Source: Nitrosopumilaceae archaeon (GTDB taxonomy: Archaea > Thermoproteota > Nitrososphaeria > Nitrososphaerales > Nitrosopumilaceae). Taken from it: a stretch of 64,000 nucleotides of DNA. This document shows positions 43,431 through 55,258 of the stretch, piece after piece. The notes beneath the pieces were generated by a model. It worked only from the letters and a program-made list of their open reading frames with translations, was not told the origin of the DNA and did not search any database. The position numbers were made by a program, and so were the translations under genes. The stretch is taken from the NCBI GenBank assembly GCA_028279545.1, contig JANQNN010000011.1, forward strand, positions 1-64,000, read 5' to 3'. How positions within the stretch are numbered: the first letter of the stretch is position 1; each line of letters starts with the position of its first letter.

Positions 43431-44156
43431 ATGACTGACCCCATTATAGATGATGTCGAGGCCCTACTAGAAAATGGGTATGGTGATAAGCAAATACTTG
43501 AGCAGATTGAAAGGGCTGCCAAAAATAATGAGGTAATTAGCAATTTTGAGAGAAATTATGTTAAAAAACTAACACAAAAACACTTTGGACAACCTCCTGT
43601 GGAGACTGAGACTCCGCAAATTCCAAAACCAACTCCAGCTCCTCCAACCCCTGATGTAGAAATTCCAACTACATTTGCATCCAAAGTATCAGAATCAGGA
43701 CAAATTCTTGCTCCTCAAAAAAAGGTCACAAAATCAAGTTCAAAAAATACCATAATAATGATTGGAGGAGGAATAGCTGCATTGGCAATAATTATAGCTG
43801 TAGCACTTTCTATGGGCGGTGATTCAACCTCAGTTACAACTCCTGTTGATATTAATCCAACAACTAGCACATCAAACACTTTTTCAGTTAAAGTAGATTC
43901 TTCATCATACAACAGAGGAGATATCATATCCATTAATGGACAGTCGCAACTCTCTCAAGGAAATCAAGTAAGAGTAACCATTGAGAATTCAGATAACATA
44001 ATGATATGGTCTGAGCAAGTAAGTGCAAAAAGTGATGGTAGGTTCAATACCATGACCTTTGCTGGAGGAGATGGTTGGAGCCAAGCAGGAAAGTTTACCA
44101 TTAAAGCCGAAGCTAATGGAGAAACTTCTACTCAAATTTTTACGTTTACTGGATAA
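43431..44156 (+). CDS. Single-pass membrane protein with extracytoplasmic Ig-like domain
   Basis: A protein of 241 residues. Residues 1-60 are a helical SHOCT-like cytoplasmic region (ALLENGYGDKQILEQIERA), then a Pro-rich linker, a basic stretch (KKVTKSSSKN), one transmembrane helix (TIIMIGGGIAALAIIIAVAL) and a C-terminal beta-sandwich (FSVKVDSSSYNRGDIISING to STQIFTFTG). There is no N-terminal signal peptide. The Ig-like end resembles surface adhesion or ligand domains. It ends one base from the convergent nuclease-like gene. Confidence 0.7.
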   Translation: MTDPIIDDVEALLENGYGDKQILEQIERAAKNNEVISNFERNYVKKLTQKHFGQPPVETETPQIPKPTPAPPTPDVEIPTTFASKVSESGQILAPQKKVTKSSSKNTIIMIGGGIAALAIIIAVALSMGGDSTSVTTPVDINPTTSTSNTFSVKVDSSSYNRGDIISINGQSQLSQGNQVRVTIENSDNIMIWSEQVSAKSDGRFNTMTFAGGDGWSQAGKFTIKAEANGETSTQIFTFTG

Positions 44157-44729
44157 TCACTCAAAGGATTTCCAGTGAGAGTCTATAATTTTTCTTAATT
44201 GCTCTACACTAATTTCTTCTAGATAATCTCGGTAAATTATGAATTTTTTCTGTCTAGCTTGGTTTTCTTCAAAATCATCTATGTTGTTTTTTGGTATGGT
44301 TCCATTTTTCCATTGTTTCATCTCAAAAAGCCAAATTTTGGAATCTGGATTTGAAAAATCAATATCATCAGTGCCAATAAAGTACATGTAACATTTGGAA
44401 GCTTGATTTAGTTTTTCATGTAGTCTTTCATAGGCAATCATTTGCCCAAATGGAATGTTTATTTTATCATTGTGAAATCCCTTAAACTCTAGAATAACAA
44501 AACCGCCGTTATGTTCAATTAACCAATCAAGGTCAGTTCCACCTGAGGTTACCATTCCGTTTACAATTAGGTTTCCAAGAATTTCTCGTCCACGTGTAAA
44601 CTCTTGTTCATCAAAGATTTGGTATTTTGCCTTTGGACTTTGGCGTATAGGTGGATTCATTTTTAGTTCTGTTGCACTTGATTTTTTCTCATAAAATGTA
44701 TCAATCAAGTCATCAGATTCACCGGGCAT
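44157..44729 (-). CDS. PD-(D/E)XK-like nuclease-fold protein, unknown role
   Basis: A 190-residue soluble protein. The stretch GGTDLDWLIEHNGG followed by FVILEFKGFH matches the PD-(D/E)XK active-site pattern: Asp in the first hairpin and Glu-x-Lys in the next strand, with helix AYERLHEKLNQ after it. A restriction endonuclease-like or Holliday/VSR-like fold is likely, but no methylase, helicase or defence gene is adjacent. It may be a housekeeping repair nuclease or an inactive derivative. Confidence 0.6.
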   Translation of the reverse strand: MPGESDDLIDTFYEKKSSATELKMNPPIRQSPKAKYQIFDEQEFTRGREILGNLIVNGMVTSGGTDLDWLIEHNGGFVILEFKGFHNDKINIPFGQMIAYERLHEKLNQASKCYMYFIGTDDIDFSNPDSKIWLFEMKQWKNGTIPKNNIDDFEENQARQKKFIIYRDYLEEISVEQLRKIIDSHWKSFE

Positions 44730-44798
44730 AAGGTACTTGAAAAATTACCTGATGATAAGATAGTTTGTAAAATAAAATAAAGTTTTGATATTTTCGAT

Positions 44799-45020
44799 TT
44801 AATGAGATAAAAATTCGCCATTACTACCTTTATACAAAATAAAGTAGTCCTTTGGATTTTTTCTATCCTTTTTTGCCTTTAGTGCGTCTTGATACATCTC
44901 AAAATGCTCAACTAGGTATAATTGACCATTAGAGTCTTCAAAATAATCAATTCCAACTAGATTAAATCCTGTATCAGGAGTAAGACTTTGTTTTTGTTTT
45001 TCTAGCTGGTTATTATCCAT
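44799..45020 (-). CDS. Small hypothetical protein
   Basis: Seventy-three soluble residues with ATG start, predicted strand-strand-helix-strand (VGIDYFEDSNGQLYLVEHFE, MYQDALKAKKDRKN, DYFILYKGSNG). No known motif. It lies downstream of the secreted-protein gene at 45070-46695 on the same strand and upstream of the nuclease-fold gene; the AT-rich gaps suggest separate promoters. Confidence 0.55.
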   Translation of the reverse strand: MDNNQLEKQKQSLTPDTGFNLVGIDYFEDSNGQLYLVEHFEMYQDALKAKKDRKNPKDYFILYKGSNGEFLSH

Positions 45021-45069
45021 GTGGGATGTTGTTTTTTGATAATTAATTAATAATTTGTCCTAGTAAATT

Positions 45070-46695
45070 TTAAGGATCTAAGTTTGGAGGATCAACTTGT
45101 GTCATTCCAGGATTAATCATAGTTGATGGCACACAGAGTTCTTTTTCCTTCTTTGTGTCTAGTTCTTCAGGACCAAAGTAGTTGTTTGTAAATACGCTAG
45201 TTCTATCATGGTTTTTCTCACCTTTTGATTTTTTGACATCATAGCATAGCAGTTGTTCTCCATAAACTCCGTTTGGAACCTTGATGACATTGTTTGTCTG
45301 CATTGAATTACAGAACATCCTTGGTTTTTTGACATCCATGGTTCGGTCCTCATCAAAGTTTGGATCATACACATCAGCTTTTATCTTCTTAAAGTTTGGA
45401 GTGCCCTTTGTAACTTTTACATCATAGCACTTGAAGTGATCAGGCTCTGACTGTAATGGATCAGGTGTAGAGGTGTGATTTTTTGCAGATGGTACTAGCA
45501 ATAATCTTTCATTTCTAATATCAAGTGAAATTGTACCAAATTGATTTTCAACTAAAACGGTACCTTTGGCTTTGTTTTGTTTATCATTTACCTTAATCTT
45601 GTATCCAACATAATGAGATTTCTCATCAACTAGACCCTCATTATTTTTGTCAACTGGGTTGAGTAGTCTGTAAAGATTGTCTACCTCAAAATCCCCTGAG
45701 ACAAATTGGTCTGTTAAAATGACATCAAAGTCATTAAACTTTGGAGTGTTTTTAGTCTCTTGAATTTGATATGTTAAAAAGTGCTCAGGAGCTGTTGGAG
45801 GAGGAATATCTTCACAAACTCTATCGCTAGTAGCTGTTGGTGGTGTTACCTCAATTTGGTTTGGACCACATACAGTCAAAGCTGTACACACTCTATCTGA
45901 AGTTTCAGTTGGTGGAGTTGATTCGTATTCATCAGCAGTACATACAGTCAATGCAATACAAGAACCCCCTGATTCATACTCATCATCAGTACATTCTGGA
46001 GGAGGACAACCATTAATTATTGCATTTCCCTGTGGCAAAGCCCCATTGTAGGTACCGCCACAGAGGTACATATCTCCAGGAGTGTTAATCATATTACTTA
46101 GTATATTGTTGATTCCGGTTCCTCCGGTATTTGAAATGACGATCGTGTCATTATTAGCAATAGTACCTACTGTAATAGACTGGATTCCTGTTCCAGTAGT
46201 ATTTGATATTGTAACAGTTCCATCGTTAGTTAGTGTCCCTGTTATATTGATGCCAGTTCCAGCTGTATTTGAGATTGTAATTGTACCATTATTGTTGAGT
46301 GCACCTGCAAGATTGATTCCAAAGATACCTGTGCTTGAAATAATTATTGCCCCATTATTAGTAAGGGTTCCTGAACCAATTAGATTGATTCCGGTTCCTC
46401 CAGTATTTGAAATTGTAATTGTTCCATTATTGGTAATGGTTCCCAATTGATTGATTCCAAGAGCAGGAGACGATATTACAAGAGTAACTCCCGACGGAAC
46501 AATAAGCTCATCTGTTGCAAAATTTACATAAAGAGTTGAAAGTGTACAGGTATCAACTGCCCATACTCCTCCCATTGTACCACAAAAAGTTGCATCAAGA
46601 GTGTTTGTAACTGCATGTGCATTAGGAGTTGTAGTAAATATGATTAAACTAAATATTGCAACACCTAGGGTACCTGTAAGAATTTTATTTCTCAT
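45070..46695 (-). CDS. Secreted modular protein 1: beta-helix-like repeats plus shared C-terminal region
   Basis: The start is taken as ATG 46695 (MRNKILTGTLGVAIF) because the shared promoter lies too close to ATG 46710. Signal peptide ends NAHA. N-terminal part: five repeats of about 22 residues (GTITNNGTITISNTGG, TGINLI), rich in Asn, Gly and Thr, typical of right-handed beta-helix surface proteins. Middle: two Cys-rich units (LTVCTADEYES, TSDRVC). The last 235 residues hold four repeats beginning HFLTYQ, HYVGYK, HFKCYDVK and LLCYDVK and ending PVDK, VPSAKN, CNSM and CVPS. No anchor. Unknown function; probably extracellular. Confidence 0.78.
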   Translation of the reverse strand: MRNKILTGTLGVAIFSLIIFTTTPNAHAVTNTLDATFCGTMGGVWAVDTCTLSTLYVNFATDELIVPSGVTLVISSPALGINQLGTITNNGTITISNTGGTGINLIGSGTLTNNGAIIISSTGIFGINLAGALNNNGTITISNTAGTGINITGTLTNDGTVTISNTTGTGIQSITVGTIANNDTIVISNTGGTGINNILSNMINTPGDMYLCGGTYNGALPQGNAIINGCPPPECTDDEYESGGSCIALTVCTADEYESTPPTETSDRVCTALTVCGPNQIEVTPPTATSDRVCEDIPPPTAPEHFLTYQIQETKNTPKFNDFDVILTDQFVSGDFEVDNLYRLLNPVDKNNEGLVDEKSHYVGYKIKVNDKQNKAKGTVLVENQFGTISLDIRNERLLLVPSAKNHTSTPDPLQSEPDHFKCYDVKVTKGTPNFKKIKADVYDPNFDEDRTMDVKKPRMFCNSMQTNNVIKVPNGVYGEQLLCYDVKKSKGEKNHDRTSVFTNNYFGPEELDTKKEKELCVPSTMINPGMTQVDPPNLDP

Positions 46696-46728
46696 ATTTG
46701 CCCGACGCATTTTATTGGCTGGTGGCAG

Positions 46729-46751
46729 TAATAAGTCTGATTAAGTGTTCC
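46729..46751 (-). promoter_or_regulatory. Shared promoter motif, secreted modular gene 1
   Basis: Minus strand GGAACACTTAATCAG then ACTTATTA. The same 23-base pattern occurs at 49574-49596 and 52014-52036. TTATTA serves as the TATA element; the GRACA and AATCA blocks upstream are conserved beyond what TBP/TFB binding needs. Confidence 0.65.
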
Positions 46752-46906
46752 AAAAAAAAATAAGACAAAATTTTTTTCCAAAAAAAACCAACAAATTGAT
46801 TTTCAATGCATTCGAATTTTTTTTTAAAACGCTTTCAGCAAATAGATCTTGATGTTTACAAAAATTTTAAAGGAAAAAACAATTGAATTTCACGAAACTA
46901 TTTGAT

Positions 46907-49531
46907 TTACGAGATTAATACGTTTGGAGTAACGATAGTAGATGGTACACACAGTTCCTCTACCTTTTTGGTCTTTAGTCCTTCATCGCCAAACTGGTTG
47001 TTTGTGTACACTTTTGTTTTCTTGTGTTTTGGTTCTCCTTTTACAGGATCTACATCATAGCATAACAGATTGGCTTCAGGATTTATGATTTGTCCTACAT
47101 ACTTGTCATGAGTTTTTTGTACGGGATTGCAGAACCACTTTGGATAGTCAACTTTGTGTTGTATTGTCTCTCCAAAGTTTGGATCATATACACTAACTAT
47201 TCTGTCTTCAAATTTGGGAGTGTTTTTAGTTTCTCTGACATCGTAGCACTTGTAGTGGTCAGAAGAATTGAATTGCAATGGATCTGGTGTAACGTCATGG
47301 TTTTTAGCTGATGGCAATAAAAGCATCCTTGGCTTTTTAACATCCAAGCTAATTTCTCCAAACTGGTTTACTACTTGGATTTGGTCATCCATACCTGAAT
47401 TTTGGTAACCCTTTTCTTGTTTTATCTTGTATCCCACCAAATGAGTAACAGTATCAATTAGACCTTCTTGGTTTTTGTCAACTGGGTTGAGTAACCTATA
47501 GAGTTGTTTTACCTTAAAGTCTCCTGAACCAAACTGGTCAGAGAGTCCCACGTATTTTGCTCTGAACTTTTGCTTGTCATTTTCTTTGATATTGTAACTC
47601 AAAAAGTGCTCAATAGTGGGTTCGGGTTTTGGAGGGTCATCGTTATTCAAAATTTCACAAGTATAAGATTCTCCTGCAATTGCATTTCCACTACATTCTG
47701 ATGATGGTGTTCCAGTATATCCTCCAGGGCCTGATTCACTGACTGAATATGGACCTGGGTTAATAGTAACTATGGTGCCAGCAATTGATCCTGCGAAATT
47801 ATTTTGCGATGGATTACTTGATGGAGAAATCATCATTGTAAAGTCTCCAGGTAATGCCGTACCTCCCTCATCATTAAGGACATCTTTGATTACAGTAAGG
47901 GATGCAGTAGTTGGTTGTGGATCAGGACATACAAGAGTTGAGACACACTCATCACCTTGAAGTTCTGTATCAGGACCACAGTTTGGTTCACACATTTGCG
48001 TTGCTTGGTTAAATGAAGTTCCCGTGCCACATGGAGGATCAATACATACTCTATCACTAGTGGCCGTTGGGGCTACTGCCTCAATTTGGTCAGCAGTACA
48101 TACGGTCAAGTCAGTACATTGCCTGTCTGATGTTGCAGTTGGTGCAACTGATTCATACTGATCAGCAGTACACACAGTCAAAGCCACACAAGAATTTCCT
48201 GAAAGATATTCATCTTGTGTACAAGATGGTACAACTCCTGAATCTACATTAATAAAAGTACAAGTAACGACATCATTTGCAGTAACCGTAACAGTCCCGC
48301 CAGGACTGACAGGACATTCAGTATCTCCTGTTGTAGATACAAATGCATAACCTGATACTAGAGTTTCATTTAGAATAGTTGCAGCATCAATAGTAACTGG
48401 AGTCAAGGCTCCTGAGGATACTCCAACTCCCCCTACAGTAAGTGCAAAATCATTTGGTCCTGCGGTTCCAAGTCCCTCATTGTTAACTTGTTTATTTAAA
48501 ATTACAAATGCTAAAGGATTGGCAGTAGTTCCTACATTTTCACAATTAATATAAGAATCATTTCCACCACCAGTATCAAAAGCTACATCTGTTCCTGGTC
48601 CACAATTAATTACATTGTCATGTCCGTTTCCAGGAGTAAAAATTACATCACTTCCATCTCCTGCATTAACCTGATTATTTCCTCCCCCAAGTGTCATTAC
48701 ATCATTACCTGGTCCTGAGGTAAAATTATCATGTCCATTTGCACCAGAAATAAAATTACTTCCACCACCTGCAACAACGGTGTTATTACCACCACCTGCC
48801 TGAATTACATCATTACCATTTCCTGTGGTTATGTTATCATGTCCACCAGCAGTTGTTACAGTATTCATCCCATGACCTGCAACAATGGTGTTATTCCCAC
48901 CTCCTGCTGCAATAGTATCATTATTGTCTCCAGTAGTAATGTTATCATGTCCACCCCCAGAAGTTACATTATTCACACCCTGACCTGCAACAATGGTGTT
49001 GTTCCCGCCAGAATCAACGATTGTATCATCTCCGTCTCCAGTAGTAATGTTATCATGTCCACCCCCAGAGGTTACATTATTCACACCATGACCTGCAACA
49101 ATGGTGTTGCCCCCACCAGAATCATTGATAGTATCATTATTGTCTCCAGTAGTAATGTTATCATTTCCGCCCCCAGTTGTTACATTATTCACTCCGGCGC
49201 CAGCTATTATGACGTTATGACCAGCACTGGCGTTAATAGTATCATTTCCACCCAAAGTCACAATACAGTCGTTTCCTGCGCCCGCATTAACCTGATCATC
49301 TCCTCCATTACCCACAATATAGTCAGCACCTGGGGTACCATTTAGAACTTCATTAGCAGCTGTTCCCAAAACAACATTGTAACTACCAATTACTCCTGGA
49401 CACGCAGCTGGAAGAGGAGGAACTGGTCCTGCAAATGCAGGTGTTGTAAATCCTACCAAAAGAACTAGAGCTAAAGTTCCCGCTAAAAGCTTGTACGAAT
49501 TGTTAAATCTAAATTTACTTTCTAATCCCAT
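46907..49531 (-). CDS. Secreted modular protein 2: RTX-like beta-roll repeats plus shared C-terminal region
   Basis: A protein of 874 residues with signal peptide (YKLLAGTLALVLLVGF, AFAGP). About residues 50-335 are RTX-type nonapeptides (GGGHDNITT, GDGDDTIVD), normally calcium-binding beta-rolls, repeated in 36-residue groups. Then come a beta domain, TNFR-like Cys units (LTVCTADQYES, TSDRQC), a prealbumin-like stalk (LTVIKDVLNDEGGTALPGDF) and the four-module C-terminal region beginning HFLSYNIKENDKQKF and ending ELCVPS. No type I secretion partner is seen, so Sec export via the signal peptide is likely. A surface or matrix role is inferred. Confidence 0.8.
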   Translation of the reverse strand: MGLESKFRFNNSYKLLAGTLALVLLVGFTTPAFAGPVPPLPAACPGVIGSYNVVLGTAANEVLNGTPGADYIVGNGGDDQVNAGAGNDCIVTLGGNDTINASAGHNVIIAGAGVNNVTTGGGNDNITTGDNNDTINDSGGGNTIVAGHGVNNVTSGGGHDNITTGDGDDTIVDSGGNNTIVAGQGVNNVTSGGGHDNITTGDNNDTIAAGGGNNTIVAGHGMNTVTTAGGHDNITTGNGNDVIQAGGGNNTVVAGGGSNFISGANGHDNFTSGPGNDVMTLGGGNNQVNAGDGSDVIFTPGNGHDNVINCGPGTDVAFDTGGGNDSYINCENVGTTANPLAFVILNKQVNNEGLGTAGPNDFALTVGGVGVSSGALTPVTIDAATILNETLVSGYAFVSTTGDTECPVSPGGTVTVTANDVVTCTFINVDSGVVPSCTQDEYLSGNSCVALTVCTADQYESVAPTATSDRQCTDLTVCTADQIEAVAPTATSDRVCIDPPCGTGTSFNQATQMCEPNCGPDTELQGDECVSTLVCPDPQPTTASLTVIKDVLNDEGGTALPGDFTMMISPSSNPSQNNFAGSIAGTIVTINPGPYSVSESGPGGYTGTPSSECSGNAIAGESYTCEILNNDDPPKPEPTIEHFLSYNIKENDKQKFRAKYVGLSDQFGSGDFKVKQLYRLLNPVDKNQEGLIDTVTHLVGYKIKQEKGYQNSGMDDQIQVVNQFGEISLDVKKPRMLLLPSAKNHDVTPDPLQFNSSDHYKCYDVRETKNTPKFEDRIVSVYDPNFGETIQHKVDYPKWFCNPVQKTHDKYVGQIINPEANLLCYDVDPVKGEPKHKKTKVYTNNQFGDEGLKTKKVEELCVPSTIVTPNVLIS
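48725..49264. repeat. 108-bp tandem DNA repeat encoding RTX block
   Basis: Equivalent positions (start of the TTATCATGTCC-like string) occur at 48725, 48833, 48941, 49049 and 49157, exactly 108 bp apart, with degenerate copies at about 48614 and 49265. Each copy encodes four nonapeptides (36 residues). Confidence 0.8.
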
Positions 49532-49573
49532 ACCAACTATCGCCCTAGTAAGGATAACTTTGTATTCTTAAAC

Positions 49574-49596
49574 TAATAAATGTGATTAACTGTCCT
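49574..49596 (-). promoter_or_regulatory. Shared promoter motif, secreted modular gene 2
   Basis: Minus strand AGGACAGTTAATCAC then ATTTATTA, about 43 bases before the ATG at 49531. The similarity to 52014-52036 continues upstream for about 20 more bases (plus-strand TGAAAATTTTAG and ACAAAAT). Confidence 0.65.
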
Positions 49597-49670
49597 GAAA
49601 ATTTTAGAACAAAATATCCATGTCTTTATTTTTTAAAAATTTAAAATTTTTAGAACTAATTTTCTTATAA

Positions 49671-51980
49671 CTATGGAGGATTAACCTGTGTCATTCCTGG
49701 ATTAATCATCATCGATGGTACACATAGCTCTTTTTCCTTCTTTGTGTCTAGCTCTTCAGGACCATAGTGGTTGTTTGTAAATACACTTGTTCTATCATGT
49801 TTTGGCTCACCTTTTGATTTTTTAACATCATAGCATAGCAGTTGCTCTCCATATACTCCATTTGGAGCTTTAAGAGCATTTGTCTGCATTGAATTGCAGA
49901 ACATCCTTGGTTTTTTCACATCCATGGTTCGGTCCTCATCAAAGTTTGGATCATAAACGTCAGCTTTTATCTTCTTAAAGTTTGGAGTGCCCTTTGTTAC
50001 TTTGACATCATAGCACGTAAAGTGACTATTCAAAGTCAATAGCACATCTGGTGTTGAATCATGACTTTTAGCTGATGGAACAAGTAGAAGCTTTGGATTT
50101 TTCACATCCAAATTAATCAAACCAAACTGGTTTGCAACCATGATTTGGTCATATCCGTCATACTTTGTATAATCTTGTTTTTGTATTTGGTATCCTACCA
50201 TGTGGGTTATTTCGTCTTGTATTCCCTCATTGTTTTTGTCAACTGGGTTGAGTAGTCTTTGGATTTTCTTTACCTTGACTTCACCGTATCCTAACTTGTC
50301 AGCCAAATCCATGTTGAATTTTTTGAACTTTGGCGTGTTTTTGGTCTCTTTGACTTGGTAGCTCATAAAGTGCTCGCCTGGGCTGTTAGTTATTGCCTGG
50401 CATACTTGGTTGTTTACACTTGGATTACATGGGTCAGAATCATCAGGATCTTCATTTGCAAGTATACCATCTTTGTCATTATCTGGATAAGTTATAGTGG
50501 ATGGCACACATAGCTCTTTTTCCTTCTTTGTGTCTAGTGCTTCAGGTCCAAACTGATTGTTTGTAAATACACTGGTTCTATCATGGTTTTCTTCACCTTT
50601 TGCTTTTTTAACATCATAACATACTAGAGGAGTTTCAGGAGATAGTATTGTTCCAGTGTAATCTCCATGAATTTTTTGTACAGGATTACAATATAGTCTT
50701 GGATTTTTTACCTCAAGTTTTCTGTCTTCATCAAAGTTTGGATCATAGACATTGACATATCTTTTCTCAAACTTTGGTGTATTCTTTGTTACCTTAACAT
50801 CATAACACTTGAAGTGATCAGCAGCATATGGTGCAAGCTCTTCAGGATAATCATCATGGTTTTTAGCTGATGGAACAAGTAGAAGTTTTGCTTTTCTAAT
50901 ATCTAAAGAAATTTCTCCAAATTGATTTTCTACAAGAATCTTGTCATACCCGTCAGTTTTTTTATAATCTTGTTGTTTTAGTTTGTATGCTACCATATGA
51001 GTTTCAGTATCATACAATCCTTCATCGTTTTTATCAACTGGATTGAGTAGTCTGTATGGTTTCTCAACTCTATAATCTCCTTCTCCAAACAAGTCTCCTA
51101 ACCATGATTCAGTTTTCTCAAACTTTGGTGTGTTTTTTGATTCGTTTACTTGATAGGTCAAAAAGTGTTCAGGAGGATTTGGTTCAATTGCAATACTTGT
51201 TTGTAATGCTATTGGAACTGAAAGAACAATAGGTACTGGTGGACCCAAAGGAGCAGGTACCTTTACTAGTATAGTTGGTGCTTGTGCAGCAGTTATGATA
51301 TAATCTCCATTAGAATCAATTGCAATATTTGGAGTTACATTTGGAAGACCTCCTGCAATTGGAGAGAAAATTCCACCACTAACTTTTCCTACAGCATGAG
51401 AAGGAGTAACAATATAGTCACCAAAAGAGTCAATTGCAATACCCCATAGTGGATTTGGCAAACCAACAATTGGTGTATTAATTCCACCAGATATTTGATG
51501 AATTACTCCTGCACCTGTTGCAATATAGTCTCCATTATAGTCAATTGAAATGCCAGTTAAGCCAGGTGCAAGTGGGCTTAGAGGATGAGGTGTAAATACT
51601 CCACCACTTACTTTTCCTATAAGGCCATTAAATCCCACTACCACATAGTCACCATTTGCGTCAATTGCCACATCTGTTAGTTGACTTGGAAGAGGACTTG
51701 ATGGATCAGGTGTAAATACTCCACCACTTACTTTTCCTATTGCACCATTAAAGGCAACTACCACATAGTCACCGTTTTTGTCAATTGCAATACTTGTTAT
51801 AGGATCAAGACCTGCCGCAATGGGAGTTACTACACCTGCAGGAGTTACTCTATCAATGGTTCCTGCTAACCCAGTGACAATATAATCCCCAGGTGCTGCA
51901 TGTGCTAAATTACTTGAAAGTGGAATAATTAGTCCTAATACTGCAATAGATAATACGATTGAAACAATCCTTTTCCCCAT
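49671..51980 (-). CDS. Secreted modular protein 3: six-repeat propeller-like domain plus two shared C-terminal regions
   Basis: ATG 51980 (MGKRIVSIVLSIAVLGL, NLAHA signal end) is chosen because the shared promoter lies only 7-29 bases above ATG 52007. Residues 30-265 are six repeats of about 40 residues (GDYVVVGFNGLIGKVSGG, with IAIDSN between), a pattern of NHL or SMP-30-like propellers. Two successive copies of the four-module region follow (each HFLTYQ or HFMSYQ to CVPS), joined by a short TSP3-like calcium loop (DNDKDGILANEDPDDSDPC). The final copy is nearly identical to the end of protein 1, even at the DNA level. Confidence 0.8.
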   Translation of the reverse strand: MGKRIVSIVLSIAVLGLIIPLSSNLAHAAPGDYIVTGLAGTIDRVTPAGVVTPIAAGLDPITSIAIDKNGDYVVVAFNGAIGKVSGGVFTPDPSSPLPSQLTDVAIDANGDYVVVGFNGLIGKVSGGVFTPHPLSPLAPGLTGISIDYNGDYIATGAGVIHQISGGINTPIVGLPNPLWGIAIDSFGDYIVTPSHAVGKVSGGIFSPIAGGLPNVTPNIAIDSNGDYIITAAQAPTILVKVPAPLGPPVPIVLSVPIALQTSIAIEPNPPEHFLTYQVNESKNTPKFEKTESWLGDLFGEGDYRVEKPYRLLNPVDKNDEGLYDTETHMVAYKLKQQDYKKTDGYDKILVENQFGEISLDIRKAKLLLVPSAKNHDDYPEELAPYAADHFKCYDVKVTKNTPKFEKRYVNVYDPNFDEDRKLEVKNPRLYCNPVQKIHGDYTGTILSPETPLVCYDVKKAKGEENHDRTSVFTNNQFGPEALDTKKEKELCVPSTITYPDNDKDGILANEDPDDSDPCNPSVNNQVCQAITNSPGEHFMSYQVKETKNTPKFKKFNMDLADKLGYGEVKVKKIQRLLNPVDKNNEGIQDEITHMVGYQIQKQDYTKYDGYDQIMVANQFGLINLDVKNPKLLLVPSAKSHDSTPDVLLTLNSHFTCYDVKVTKGTPNFKKIKADVYDPNFDEDRTMDVKKPRMFCNSMQTNALKAPNGVYGEQLLCYDVKKSKGEPKHDRTSVFTNNHYGPEELDTKKEKELCVPSMMINPGMTQVNPP

Positions 51981-52013
51981 ATTCGCCCGACGAAATTCTT
52001 TGGCCAATGGAGG

Positions 52014-52036
52014 TAATAAGTGTGATTTATTGTTCT
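52014..52036 (-). promoter_or_regulatory. Shared promoter motif, secreted modular gene 3
   Basis: Minus strand AGAACAATAAATCAC then ACTTATTA; the predicted transcript start is near 51990, just before ATG 51980. Confidence 0.65.
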
Positions 52037-52111
52037 GAAAATTTTAGCACAAAATTTTTTTTTTAACTTTTTTTAAAATTTTAAACTTTATCAAAAATTT
52101 TTTTGCTTTTT

Positions 52112-53053
52112 TTATCCTCTCAAACCAAATGCCAGTGACACAGAGTAACATCCTAGTCCACAATCTTCACATCTAGGTTTCATTGAATCTTGTTCTGCAC
52201 TACCAATGCAGCAAGGAAGTTTTTCTCGTCCCATATGATCAACGGATATTATGGTCCATGTAGGACAATCAATTGGAACGGTCCCTTTTCCTCCCCAACT
52301 ACCTCTCATCAACTCTAATTGCTTTTTGGGATTAGCAATGTAATCTTTGTATTTTGTTTTCTGCAAATGAATAATCTCATCAATTACCTTGTTTCTTTTC
52401 TCACCATATGGAAGCCAAAGTGGGTCTCCTTTCATAAAGGGAGTATGAAATTGAAACCCAATTTTGTTTGTATAGTTTTTCCAGTCTTCAATTACAGTTT
52501 CTATTGTATGGTAATTTTTGGAGTTTATCGTCATTGATATCCAAATATCTTTGAAGGCTTTTTCACCGTATTTTTCAACATAATCAACCACATTTTTTCT
52601 AGTATTCTCCCAAGCAGAAGGTCCTCTTATTTCGTTGTGTATGTCTCGAGGCCCATCAATTGAAATCCAGTAAAAATATAGTTTATCAAAACGTGGTAAT
52701 GGATAGTTACCATTTGTAACAACACATGCATGGTTTGGGAATTTTTTTGTAAACAACTCTACTACATCAGGCCTCATTAGTGGCTCACCACCAACAAGAG
52801 TAACTACAAAAACGTGTTGCTTTTTGAATTTCTCATCAATTACTTTCTCCCACTGTTCTACTGTTAGATCTTCGTTTTCTTTTCTGTTTAACCACCAATA
52901 ACAATGCTCACAGTGCAAATTGCATACATTTGTAATATCTGCCGAACCATAAATTGGACTGCGTTTGTTAAAGAGCTTGTAAGATAGAAATTTTGAAAGC
53001 AAATGAACATAGTCTGGAGTCTCTTGAATAATTTGAGAAAACCCTCTTCCCAT
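52112..53053 (-). CDS. Radical SAM protein with C-terminal Cys cluster (SPASM-like)
   Basis: The ATG at 53053 has GGAG just upstream; a TTG at 53062 is less likely. The 313-residue protein has CNLHCEHC (Cys-x3-Cys-x2-Cys), the SAM-binding LVGGEPLMRPD, and Cys-rich C-terminal segments (DCPTW, LPCCIGSAEQ, CEDCGLGCYS) that could bind auxiliary Fe-S clusters. It is broadly related to HpnH, MoaA and peptide-modifying enzymes; substrate unknown. It is monocistronic or the distal member of the minus-strand set with the ASCH gene. Confidence 0.8.
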   Translation of the reverse strand: MGRGFSQIIQETPDYVHLLSKFLSYKLFNKRSPIYGSADITNVCNLHCEHCYWWLNRKENEDLTVEQWEKVIDEKFKKQHVFVVTLVGGEPLMRPDVVELFTKKFPNHACVVTNGNYPLPRFDKLYFYWISIDGPRDIHNEIRGPSAWENTRKNVVDYVEKYGEKAFKDIWISMTINSKNYHTIETVIEDWKNYTNKIGFQFHTPFMKGDPLWLPYGEKRNKVIDEIIHLQKTKYKDYIANPKKQLELMRGSWGGKGTVPIDCPTWTIISVDHMGREKLPCCIGSAEQDSMKPRCEDCGLGCYSVSLAFGLRG

Positions 53054-53170
53054 TATCTCCAATTTTTCTCATCTCCAAAAATTACCCAAGACTTAACCCC
53101 AATCATGGTAAATTCCAATAGTTCAAACAAAGATAAAAGATTAAAGGACTAATTTGCACAAAATTAGAAT

Positions 53171-53626
53171 CTAGTGGTGTCCAATCCACTGATATCTAAA
53201 TTCCTCATCAATAATGTCGGCCACTATCTCTTTATTTTTAACCACGGTCTTTGGCAGCTTTACCTCAAAGAATCCTAGCTGACCCTTGAAGGGAATAGGA
53301 ATTCGAAATGGTTTTGCTTTTTTTAACATAAATCCATATTTTTTGTTTTGAAAATTTTTTCCAGCAAAATGATATTTTCTATCTTTCTTTATCTCAGAAA
53401 TTGTTTCATATTTTTTTACATCATAAAGATTGGCTTTGCCAACAATGGCGCCAGTAACTAATTTTTTATTTATTTTTAGTCGCTTGCAGTCTTGGGTTCT
53501 AATTTTAATTGGTGCATGTATTAGAAATTCCCCCCGAAAGTTTGTAGTCCAGTTTCGAAGCTCTATACTTTTTTTCCCTGAAATTATTAAATCAGCAAAG
53601 GGTTGGGATACTGACAAACACTTCAA
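53171..53626 (-). CDS. ASCH-domain protein
   Basis: The 151-residue protein starts MKCLSVSQPFADLIISGKK, then SIELRNWTTNFRGEFLIHA, the signature of ASCH (ASC-1 homology) domains, a PUA-related fold that binds RNA or modified nucleosides. The conserved Lys and Glu-Arg dyad of the family (GKKSIELR) is visible. In bacteria, small ASCH proteins include an N4-acetylcytidine amidohydrolase; which activity applies here is not known. Confidence 0.82.
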   Translation of the reverse strand: MKCLSVSQPFADLIISGKKSIELRNWTTNFRGEFLIHAPIKIRTQDCKRLKINKKLVTGAIVGKANLYDVKKYETISEIKKDRKYHFAGKNFQNKKYGFMLKKAKPFRIPIPFKGQLGFFEVKLPKTVVKNKEIVADIIDEEFRYQWIGHH

Positions 53627-53692
53627 TGCGATTCATCCTGAATTTTCAAAATTATTTTAGTATCAAATTTCATCGCAATACCATTTACTAGC

Positions 53693-55258
53693 TTAGCTTT
53701 CCTCTAAGATACCAATTACTTTGCTTGGAATATCATTTAGTCTGCTTACAGCCAAAGTTCGCTCATATCCCAAACGTTTGAGATTTAACGCAATTGTCGT
53801 TGCCCTTAGAGTGTTTTGTCCTAAGCCAATTGCTACCATTTGTATTCCAAAGCTCTTCAGTGTCTTTGTCATGTTTCTTACTGCAGCTGGATCAGATGGC
53901 TCTCCATCGGTTAAAGTCAAAAAGATATCAGGCCTTTTTGATTGCAGTATAGGATGCATTTTTTTGTAAACTTCAGCTAGTGGTGTAGAGCCGTTTGCAA
54001 CTATTTGCGCTAGTCGTTTAGCAGATGTTGTATTCCATTTTACACTATCAGGTTTTACCTGCCAGCAAACAACAGCCCTATTTTCTGTACTAAATGCATA
54101 TACTGCAAACTTTACGTTTAGATACGCTAAAACCTCACATAGCGCCAGTGTCGCTTTTTTGTACTCTAGAGCCTCTGAAGATATACTAGATGAGTGATCT
54201 AACAAAATTACAATTTTTGTTTTAATTGATTTTTTAACATCTGTAAAGAATGGCTCGTGTCCTTCAAGGTAACTTTCCTCATCAAACTCGTCTCCACTTT
54301 TTAGATGCTCTTCTTTCCAACCTGATTTCCATTCTTTGAATTTTATTTTCAAATTATTTATCAAACTAATATCATAAATTTTTGTTTCATCTACATTTTT
54401 TGTAGCAGGCGTTTGCAAACCAATTACTTTTGGCATCAATCCCGTGTTGTCGCTTTTTTTGTTTTCATCTAAGAGAATTTTGTACTCATCATACACATCT
54501 TGTCCTGCAATTACTGCTTTTGGATCAGTTTTGCCAAAATCTCCTTCCTTGTTTTTTGAAACTATTGTTAAAAATTTTAACAACTCTTCTTGAGTTAGTG
54601 CCATTCCTGCTTTCATAAATGGCAATGAAACAGGAACTGTAAGAAGAGAATCTATATCTAAAATTTTAATAATTTCGTTTACCTTTTTTTCTAACCAATC
54701 TGTATCGTGTCCTTTTTGAATTGCCTCATCTACAACTTTGATTCCAAACGTAGATGCTTTTTTTATTTTTTCAATATGACTTGATTGGATTTCCCCCTTT
54801 ATTGCACCAAACATAAAGTACTGGTAAAATGCCTCAACTATCCTTGCCTTGCCATATACTGTATGTAGTGGTGGTCTTGACACAAACATGAATGAATAAT
54901 TAAAAATAATTTCCTCATCCATTCCTCTCCATATTTTTCTACCCAAGCTTTCAATCCTTCTAGTCTCCAAGGTATTTAGAATAAACCCATATGCATGATC
55001 ACTGCTAAGAATTTTTTTACAAAACTTTAGTCTCATTGCCTCATACCACAGAGACATCCTTAGTTGCCTGTATCTTTGAAAATAACTTCCTATCCTTTTT
55101 TCCAAGGGAGTAAGAATGACTTTGTTTTCAATTATTCTTGTTTTAGTTTCTGTCTTGTCTGAAAACTCTACTAGAACATTTTCTTTTTGTGACCATCTTC
55201 GAACCAAAAAGGTGGCAATCTCAACTAATGTCTCGTTTCGTAATTCTAAGGATTGCAT
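53693..55258 (-). CDS. VWA-domain protein (CoxE/NorD-like), partner of MoxR ATPase
   Basis: The 521-residue protein has a long helical N-terminal region and a C-terminal von Willebrand factor A domain with a complete MIDAS: LLDHSSSIS (Asp-x-Ser-x-Ser), a Thr in the NGSTPL region and LTLTDGEPSD. Its ATG lies directly after the MoxR stop with no gap, so the pair is coupled. MoxR-VWA pairs insert metals into or activate enzymes (NorQ-NorD, CbbQ-CbbO, CoxD-CoxE). The client here is unidentified. Confidence 0.86.
   Translation of the reverse strand: MQSLELRNETLVEIATFLVRRWSQKENVLVEFSDKTETKTRIIENKVILTPLEKRIGSYFQRYRQLRMSLWYEAMRLKFCKKILSSDHAYGFILNTLETRRIESLGRKIWRGMDEEIIFNYSFMFVSRPPLHTVYGKARIVEAFYQYFMFGAIKGEIQSSHIEKIKKASTFGIKVVDEAIQKGHDTDWLEKKVNEIIKILDIDSLLTVPVSLPFMKAGMALTQEELLKFLTIVSKNKEGDFGKTDPKAVIAGQDVYDEYKILLDENKKSDNTGLMPKVIGLQTPATKNVDETKIYDISLINNLKIKFKEWKSGWKEEHLKSGDEFDEESYLEGHEPFFTDVKKSIKTKIVILLDHSSSISSEALEYKKATLALCEVLAYLNVKFAVYAFSTENRAVVCWQVKPDSVKWNTTSAKRLAQIVANGSTPLAEVYKKMHPILQSKRPDIFLTLTDGEPSDPAAVRNMTKTLKSFGIQMVAIGLGQNTLRATTIALNLKRLGYERTLAVSRLNDIPSKVIGILEES

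Follow-up and report, generated by a model that had tools for sequence, protein, structure and literature searches.

Two described archaeal systems offer the closest comparison for the promoters reported here. According to the account in PMC10665913, the EarA motif, A(C/G)(C/G)TACA(T/C), lies nine nucleotides upstream of the BRE of archaellum promoters in Methanococcus and Thermococcales, occurs in one to three tandem copies ahead of one operon, and marks sites where EarA probably acts via TFB recruitment. TrmB-family sites and the Thermococcales glycolytic motif, as described in PMC4158304, are palindromic operators upstream of the BRE/TATA that define a multi-promoter regulon; the TrmB palindromes are TACT-N3-AGTA or of the TATCAC-N5 type and belong to sugar-related genes. 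Published work on the promoter classes of this archaeal lineage seems sparse, and we found no description of a promoter motif of this kind in the open full-text literature (PMC).

The locus that we analyzed is a 64-kb stretch of a Nitrosopumilaceae genome (the window), on whose minus strand three neighboring genes encode predicted exported proteins. The genome is recognizable as archaeal by genes for S3ae and for a digeranylgeranylglycerophospholipid-reductase-like protein, the reductase match scoring under its curated cut-off. Gene 1 (45070..46695) combines a TNFR-like Cys-rich region with DUF7450 repeats, gene 2 (46907..49531) combines RTX repeats, a SpaA-type domain, and DUF7450 repeats, and gene 3 (49671..51980) combines N-terminal repeats with two DUF7450 units. 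All three have signal-peptide-like N termini, differing N-terminal modules, and DUF7450 C termini. Judging by the alignment of the leaders, genes 1 and 3 likely start at ATG 46695 and ATG 51980 and not at the ATG/TTG farther upstream with which the longest ORFs begin. An earlier note on this DNA had reported a near-identical motif ahead of the three genes, and we recovered it exactly: the 23-mer RGRACANTWAATCANAYTTATTA matched the minus strand with zero mismatches at 46729-46751, 49574-49596, and 52014-52036, and nowhere else in the window even when 3 mismatches were allowed (shuffle mean = 0.02; 3 matches reached in 0/100 shuffles). The upstream extension claimed for genes 2 and 3 was likewise present, with 36/41 bases identical between them; over the same extended 41 bases, gene 1 was identical to each at 26/41. 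The GGGC(G/A)A string between promoter and start was located at minus-strand positions 46703, 49545, and 51988, and of just 3 GGGCGA strings in the whole 64 kb, 2 are in the leaders of these genes. Similarity among the three genes alone would be little proof of a shared promoter, because they are paralogues with common DUF7450 repeats.

The real unit is not the 23-mer but a dyad, a TATA box, and the block GGGCGATAG. Profiles of eight DUF7450 promoters together with a scan of the genus gave the element TTGTaAY-N7/8-nnACA, 9 to 10 bp, a TATA box (CTTAATA/CTTATTA), about 25 nt, and GGGCGATAG. The GRACA of the 23-mer is the right half of the dyad, its roughly 20 extra upstream bases are the left half, and the GGGCRA string is the strongest block of the element. 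At each of the three genes the 23-mer thus covers the right half of the dyad, the BRE region, and the TATA box (CTTATTA in genes 1 and 3, TTTATTA in gene 2). For gene 1, the dyad region at 46753..46775 is of the TTGT-N16-ACA form (TTGTCTTATTTTTTTTTGGAACA by regex, 10 bp ahead of the TATA box), and with the right half in 46746-46751 the dyad spans about 46746-46768; the start-proximal block GGGCAAAT lies at 46696..46703, 32 nt past the TATA start, all on the minus strand. The match of gene 1 to the profile R3 covers 46699-46775. For gene 2, the dyad TTGTTCTAAAATTTTCAGGACA lies at 49591..49612 and the block GGGCGATA at 49538..49545; for gene 3, the dyad TTGTGCTAAAATTTTCAGAACA lies at 52031..52052 and the block GGGCGAAT at 51981..51988, again all on the minus strand.

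We examined the anatomy of the element in 31 promoters, a set collected by hand by the author, as the training sets were also hand-chosen; the models were built without alignments A3 and A6, where the spacer or block sat wrongly. By regex, the dyad ended 9 to 10 bp ahead of the TATA box in 23 of the 26 dyad-bearing promoters and was absent from the other 5/31, namely three of the eight DUF7450 genes, G002:C115, and G006:C45. One dyad-less DUF7450 promoter carries GGGGGAAA in place of GGGCGATA, and the sharpest dyads were found in relatives (e.g., TTGTAACAAAATTTTGTGACAA and TTGTAATAAATTGAAATTACAA). Relative entropy over the 31 promoters peaked at GGGCGATAG and the TATA box and was near zero in the spacer. 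The spacing from TATA to GGGC had a median of 32 (sd = 2.8, range = 26 to 40), a spread that is looser than that of a strictly start-locked element, and the distance from the element to the start codon was variable (about 7 to 55 nt). What is conserved across promoters is the box and its spacing to GGGCGATAG, the transcript start being a predicted position. We rejected the idea that the GGGCGATAG block is coding sequence (TTG GGC GAT AGN) as a general reason for its conservation, since this frame is closed or startless in other genes; it is open and conserved in the genes for a 35-aa peptide.

Set beside the known systems, the element resembles EarA in having a short candidate regulator site at a fixed distance upstream of the BRE, with a surface structure as its putative target. 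It differs from EarA, as described in PMC10665913, in that a TTGT...ACA dyad precedes many separate genes and is accompanied by GGGCGATAG; what these promoters conserve is not the EarA motif but the half-sites TTGT and ACA, paired as a dyad. With TrmB-family sites the element shares a palindromic site upstream of the BRE/TATA at multiple promoters, but its half-sites and spacing differ from the palindromes given in PMC4158304, and the consensus here, TTGTAAY-N7/8-nnACA, does not fit TrmB-family operators. As in the general archaeal BRE/TATA/initiator promoter, a TATA-like box would stand about 27 nt ahead of the presumed transcript start; the general initiator is described as mostly a pyrimidine-purine pair, whereas these promoters conserve nine bases and have a dyad in addition.

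The 23-mer failed as a definition of a regulon, the use for which it had been put forward: allowing up to 3 mismatches, the whole 1.92-Mb genome yielded these three genes and one further match, inside coding sequence. Other simple patterns were discarded as well. The 16-base core with 1 mismatch was rarer than its reversed control (22 versus 43), the 23-mer at up to 2 mismatches had 7 matches in 60 relatives, each within a coding sequence or at the end of one (four of them placed by eye from near-identical sequence), and TTATTA-N20..32-GGGCRA alone was too loose (11 versus 7 in the reversed control). A profile built from the eight DUF7450 promoters (R1) gave 27 matches in the genome: the 8 training sites (E up to 8.1e-5), one strong untrained match at C56:129385 ahead of an exported collagen/fn3 protein (E = 1.7e-6), and 18 weaker untrained matches (E = 0.1 to 8.9), of which anatomy led us to retain 3 and discard 15; truncated loci (e.g., L117), for which the offset used in this inspection may be wrong, were left uncounted. 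Two of those with full anatomy, C56:200820 and C56:211448, stand ahead of paralogous exported proteins, the latter with FG-GAP and Polysacc_deac_1 domains, and the third, C13:131827, stands ahead of a small membrane peptide. The fuller element therefore marks about 12 promoters in this genome, at 46.7, 49.6, and 52.0 kb of the window, at C26:103.4 kb, at C13:131.8 and 166.7 kb, and at C56:129.4, 138.7, 162.7, 192.6, 200.8, and 211.4 kb.

In 455 kb of the same genome, the dyad with TATA occurred 6 times, was intergenic in 6/6 cases, and was followed by a GGCGA-type block in 6/6; GGGCGATA occurred 8 times, and all 5 of its intergenic occurrences were of the element class. Among 369 ORFs of at least 120 aa, 89 were exported-looking by a crude rule, and these included 7/7 ORFs with the strict element, four of the 7 being DUF7450 paralogues. 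Dyads of the form TTGT-N14/15-ACAA without a TATA box were intergenic in 14/52 and 16/50 cases, compared with 4 to 9 of 40 to 56 for other spacings and arrangements; because such TATA-less dyads also occur between other genes, the dyad's putative regulator may have further targets. A perfect palindrome of the TTGTAATRTTATAAYATTACAA type lies between divergent genes at C26:138427-138448 (L186), without the TATA and GGGCGATA blocks, and is perhaps another target of the same putative regulator.

Next, we looked at how the element is distributed across relatives. Scans with R2 covered 41 genomes and scans with R3 covered 10 genomes of the genus; the training of R3 took in the relatives' sites G002:C115, G009:C81, and G008:C114. 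Both scans gave further sites, and untrained ones in relatives included G003:C17:661 (E = 6.7e-5), G002:C52:6567 (E = 7.7e-5), G006:C34:565 (E = 1e-4, ending at model position 74), G001:C86:16493 (E = 2.1e-4), G001:C113:358 (E = 1.1e-3), and G009:C60:1981 (E = 1.6e-3). Applied to 250 family genomes with a cut-off of E up to 0.005, R3 matched in 7/10 genomes of the genus and in 5/240 others. We set the matches outside the genus aside as chance, 3/5 lying in or against ORFs and none having GGGCGATA; the remaining 2/5 represent a single site shared by two genomes of another genus, next to sequence that looks tRNA-like by eye.

We also searched the 250 family genomes with a pattern that leaves the dyad out (CTTAWTA-N22..32-GGCGATA), using the reversed pattern as a control. 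The pattern had 14 matches in 9/10 genomes of the genus (reversed control, 1), whereas the 240 genomes outside it gave 7 matches (27 for the control by manual count). All 14 matches in the genus were intergenic, that is, outside ORFs of at least 90 aa, and all 7 outside the genus were inside sense or antisense ORFs of that length. A dyad (TTGT-N13..16-ACA) was present within 42 nt upstream of 12/14 genus matches, whereas 2,000 dinucleotide shuffles averaged 0.62 and never exceeded 4. Several of the 14 sites had already been seen with R1 to R3, so the test is independent in the question asked and not in every site. These results establish the presence, spacing, and co-occurrence of the blocks, their restriction to the genus, and the type of genes downstream, with the operator standing at a fixed spacing before several nonhomologous genes, as is expected of a shared-regulator promoter class.

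The majority of the downstream genes encode predicted exported multidomain surface proteins, with exceptions. Downstream proteins were scanned in one set of 10 and one of 7, this genome and its relatives together. The domains found were DUF7450, RTX, SpaA, collagen, fn3, TSP3, NHL, GSDH, LamG, and FG-GAP, those of the relatives' scanned proteins being of the SpaA, TSP3, NHL, GSDH, or LamG type, and no family was matched by two of the ten proteins of the first set. As had been claimed, the element goes beyond a BRE/TATA match and marks separate transcription units; it also precedes genes without detected homology to genes 1 to 3 and occurs in other species of the genus. The nonsurface members are a PIG-L deacetylase, a small Cys-rich protein, and a membrane peptide of 35 to 36 aa. 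The Cys-rich protein (CxxCG...L..DxLLTHCS..C) follows the element in G005 (L161), G001 (L165), and G009 (L221) and is a possible regulatory peptide. The single-helix membrane peptide, (V/T)HNLKLIGFSVAIWVN..., is conserved in five genomes of the genus, always behind TTGGGCGATA (L113/L223 in this genome at C13:131907, L220, L224, L226, and L227), and is apparently an unannotated small gene.

This genome has eight DUF7450 genes, with domain hits at 45118-51170 in the window plus seven on contigs C13, C26, and C56. Besides the three described above, they are located at C56:138750, C56:162776, C26:103471, and about C56:192660, and one lies partly at the end of C13 and partly at the end of C56. Within that gene, the end of C13 (168261) and the end of C56 (214950) overlap by exactly 70 identical bases, and the two contigs are therefore probably neighbors. 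The second DUF7450 unit of gene 3 with its linker (window 49671-50375) is almost identical to C56:165605-166276; each copy is 71% identical to gene 1, visibly less than to the other, and their near identity suggests a recent gene conversion or duplication. Among 250 family genomes, DUF7450 was found in this one alone and, with the Pfam model, in none of 60 relatives. Related loci in GTDB genomes numbered 26, titled as bacteria, at 24 to 39% identity, in a set from which records very near this genome may be missing; no relative was confirmed on viral contigs. Eight genes here, zero in the other family genomes, and bacterial relatives at such identities suggest that DUF7450 was acquired and then amplified in this genome. 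Open full-text literature (PMC) yielded no paper on DUF7450, and for GGGCGATA the matches listed were unrelated by title.

We consider it quite probable that the 23-mer forms the core of a class of archaeal promoters that is specific to the genus, drives mainly exported multidomain surface proteins, and consists of three blocks read with the help of a putative dimeric regulator. The first block, a 21- to 23-bp dyad (TTGTAAC-N7/8-GTNACA(A)) ending 9 to 10 bp ahead of the TATA box, would be bound by a homodimeric bacterial-type regulator in contact with TFB/TBP. The second would be an ordinary BRE/TATA (CTTAATA or CTTATTA). The third, GGGCGATAG, about 32 nt past the TATA start, is predicted to lie at or just after the transcript start, because the TATA centre is about 27 nt ahead of GGGC; it may belong to the same control system as an element of the start site or of the 5' leader, acting as DNA (through start selection or a second contact) or as the RNA 5' end. 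The putative regulator is more likely an activator than a repressor, given the position of the dyad upstream of the BRE/TATA and the analogy with TrmB-type sites and EarA.

The direction of control is where the best-surviving alternative lies. If the dyad were a repressor operator, expression would be off until a signal freed the dimer; a dyad adjoining the BRE can block TFB/TBP, and one TrmB site described in PMC4158304 overlaps the BRE/TATA and represses. We regard this as doubtful, since the dyad stops 9 to 10 bp upstream of the TATA box and leaves it free, and in the same account activating sites lie upstream of the BRE/TATA and repressing ones over or downstream of it. It is also rather unlikely that the RNA is decisive. 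In that reading, an RNA-binding protein or small RNA would recognize GGGCGAUAG at the 5' end of the mRNA and so govern translation or stability, and the dyad would be secondary. No block is more conserved than GGGCGATAG, which always has the sense orientation of the gene and is spaced relative to the TATA box and not to the start codon; all of this would suit such a role. Yet the dyad is present at 12/14 sites found without it, so that something at the level of DNA is required; the block falls within the reading frame of some genes or right at its beginning; and curated covariance models (Rfam) had no match at E up to 0.1 in window positions 44000-54000.

Plain paralogy, in which the genes were duplicated along with their promoters and the likeness is leftover ancestry with no dedicated common regulator, is improbable. 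It could draw on the DUF7450 common to all three genes and five more, and on the 45/59 bases identical between genes 1 and 3 from motif to ATG, spacer included. However, the same blocks with unrelated spacers precede non-DUF7450 genes in this genome and occur in other species wholly without DUF7450, and the dyad-free search over 250 genomes largely refutes it. Least probable of all is that these promoters are read by a TFB paralogue, sigma-like and with BRE/TATA preferences of its own, a specificity that the earlier note had named alongside a shared activator: the bases just ahead of the TATA box (TWAATCA or GAATATT) are alike within promoter groups, but positions -11 to -1 carry little information across all 31 promoters and the extra information sits outside the BRE/TATA, in strong blocks beyond the TFB footprint (the operator-type dyad and the start-proximal block), so that a dimeric regulator would be the simpler reading.

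One can tentatively picture a single system that marks both the DNA (the dyad by the TATA box) and the mRNA 5' end (GGGCGAUAG), couples transcription with posttranscriptional control in a genus-specific surface regulon, and later captured a bacterial-type DUF7450 that this species alone of 250 family genomes acquired and spread to eight genes. The element also suggests that a protein family new to this genome came under a promoter class that the genus already had. With its three blocks, the element provides a definition of the regulon, predicts where the transcript of each member starts, and can serve as bait for the putative regulator of a cell surface with collagen-, fn3-, TSP3-, SpaA-, NHL-, and LamG-type proteins. 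Because the same three-part switch also precedes other surface genes in this genome and in close relatives, it points to a previously undescribed system by which these archaea may control their cell surface.
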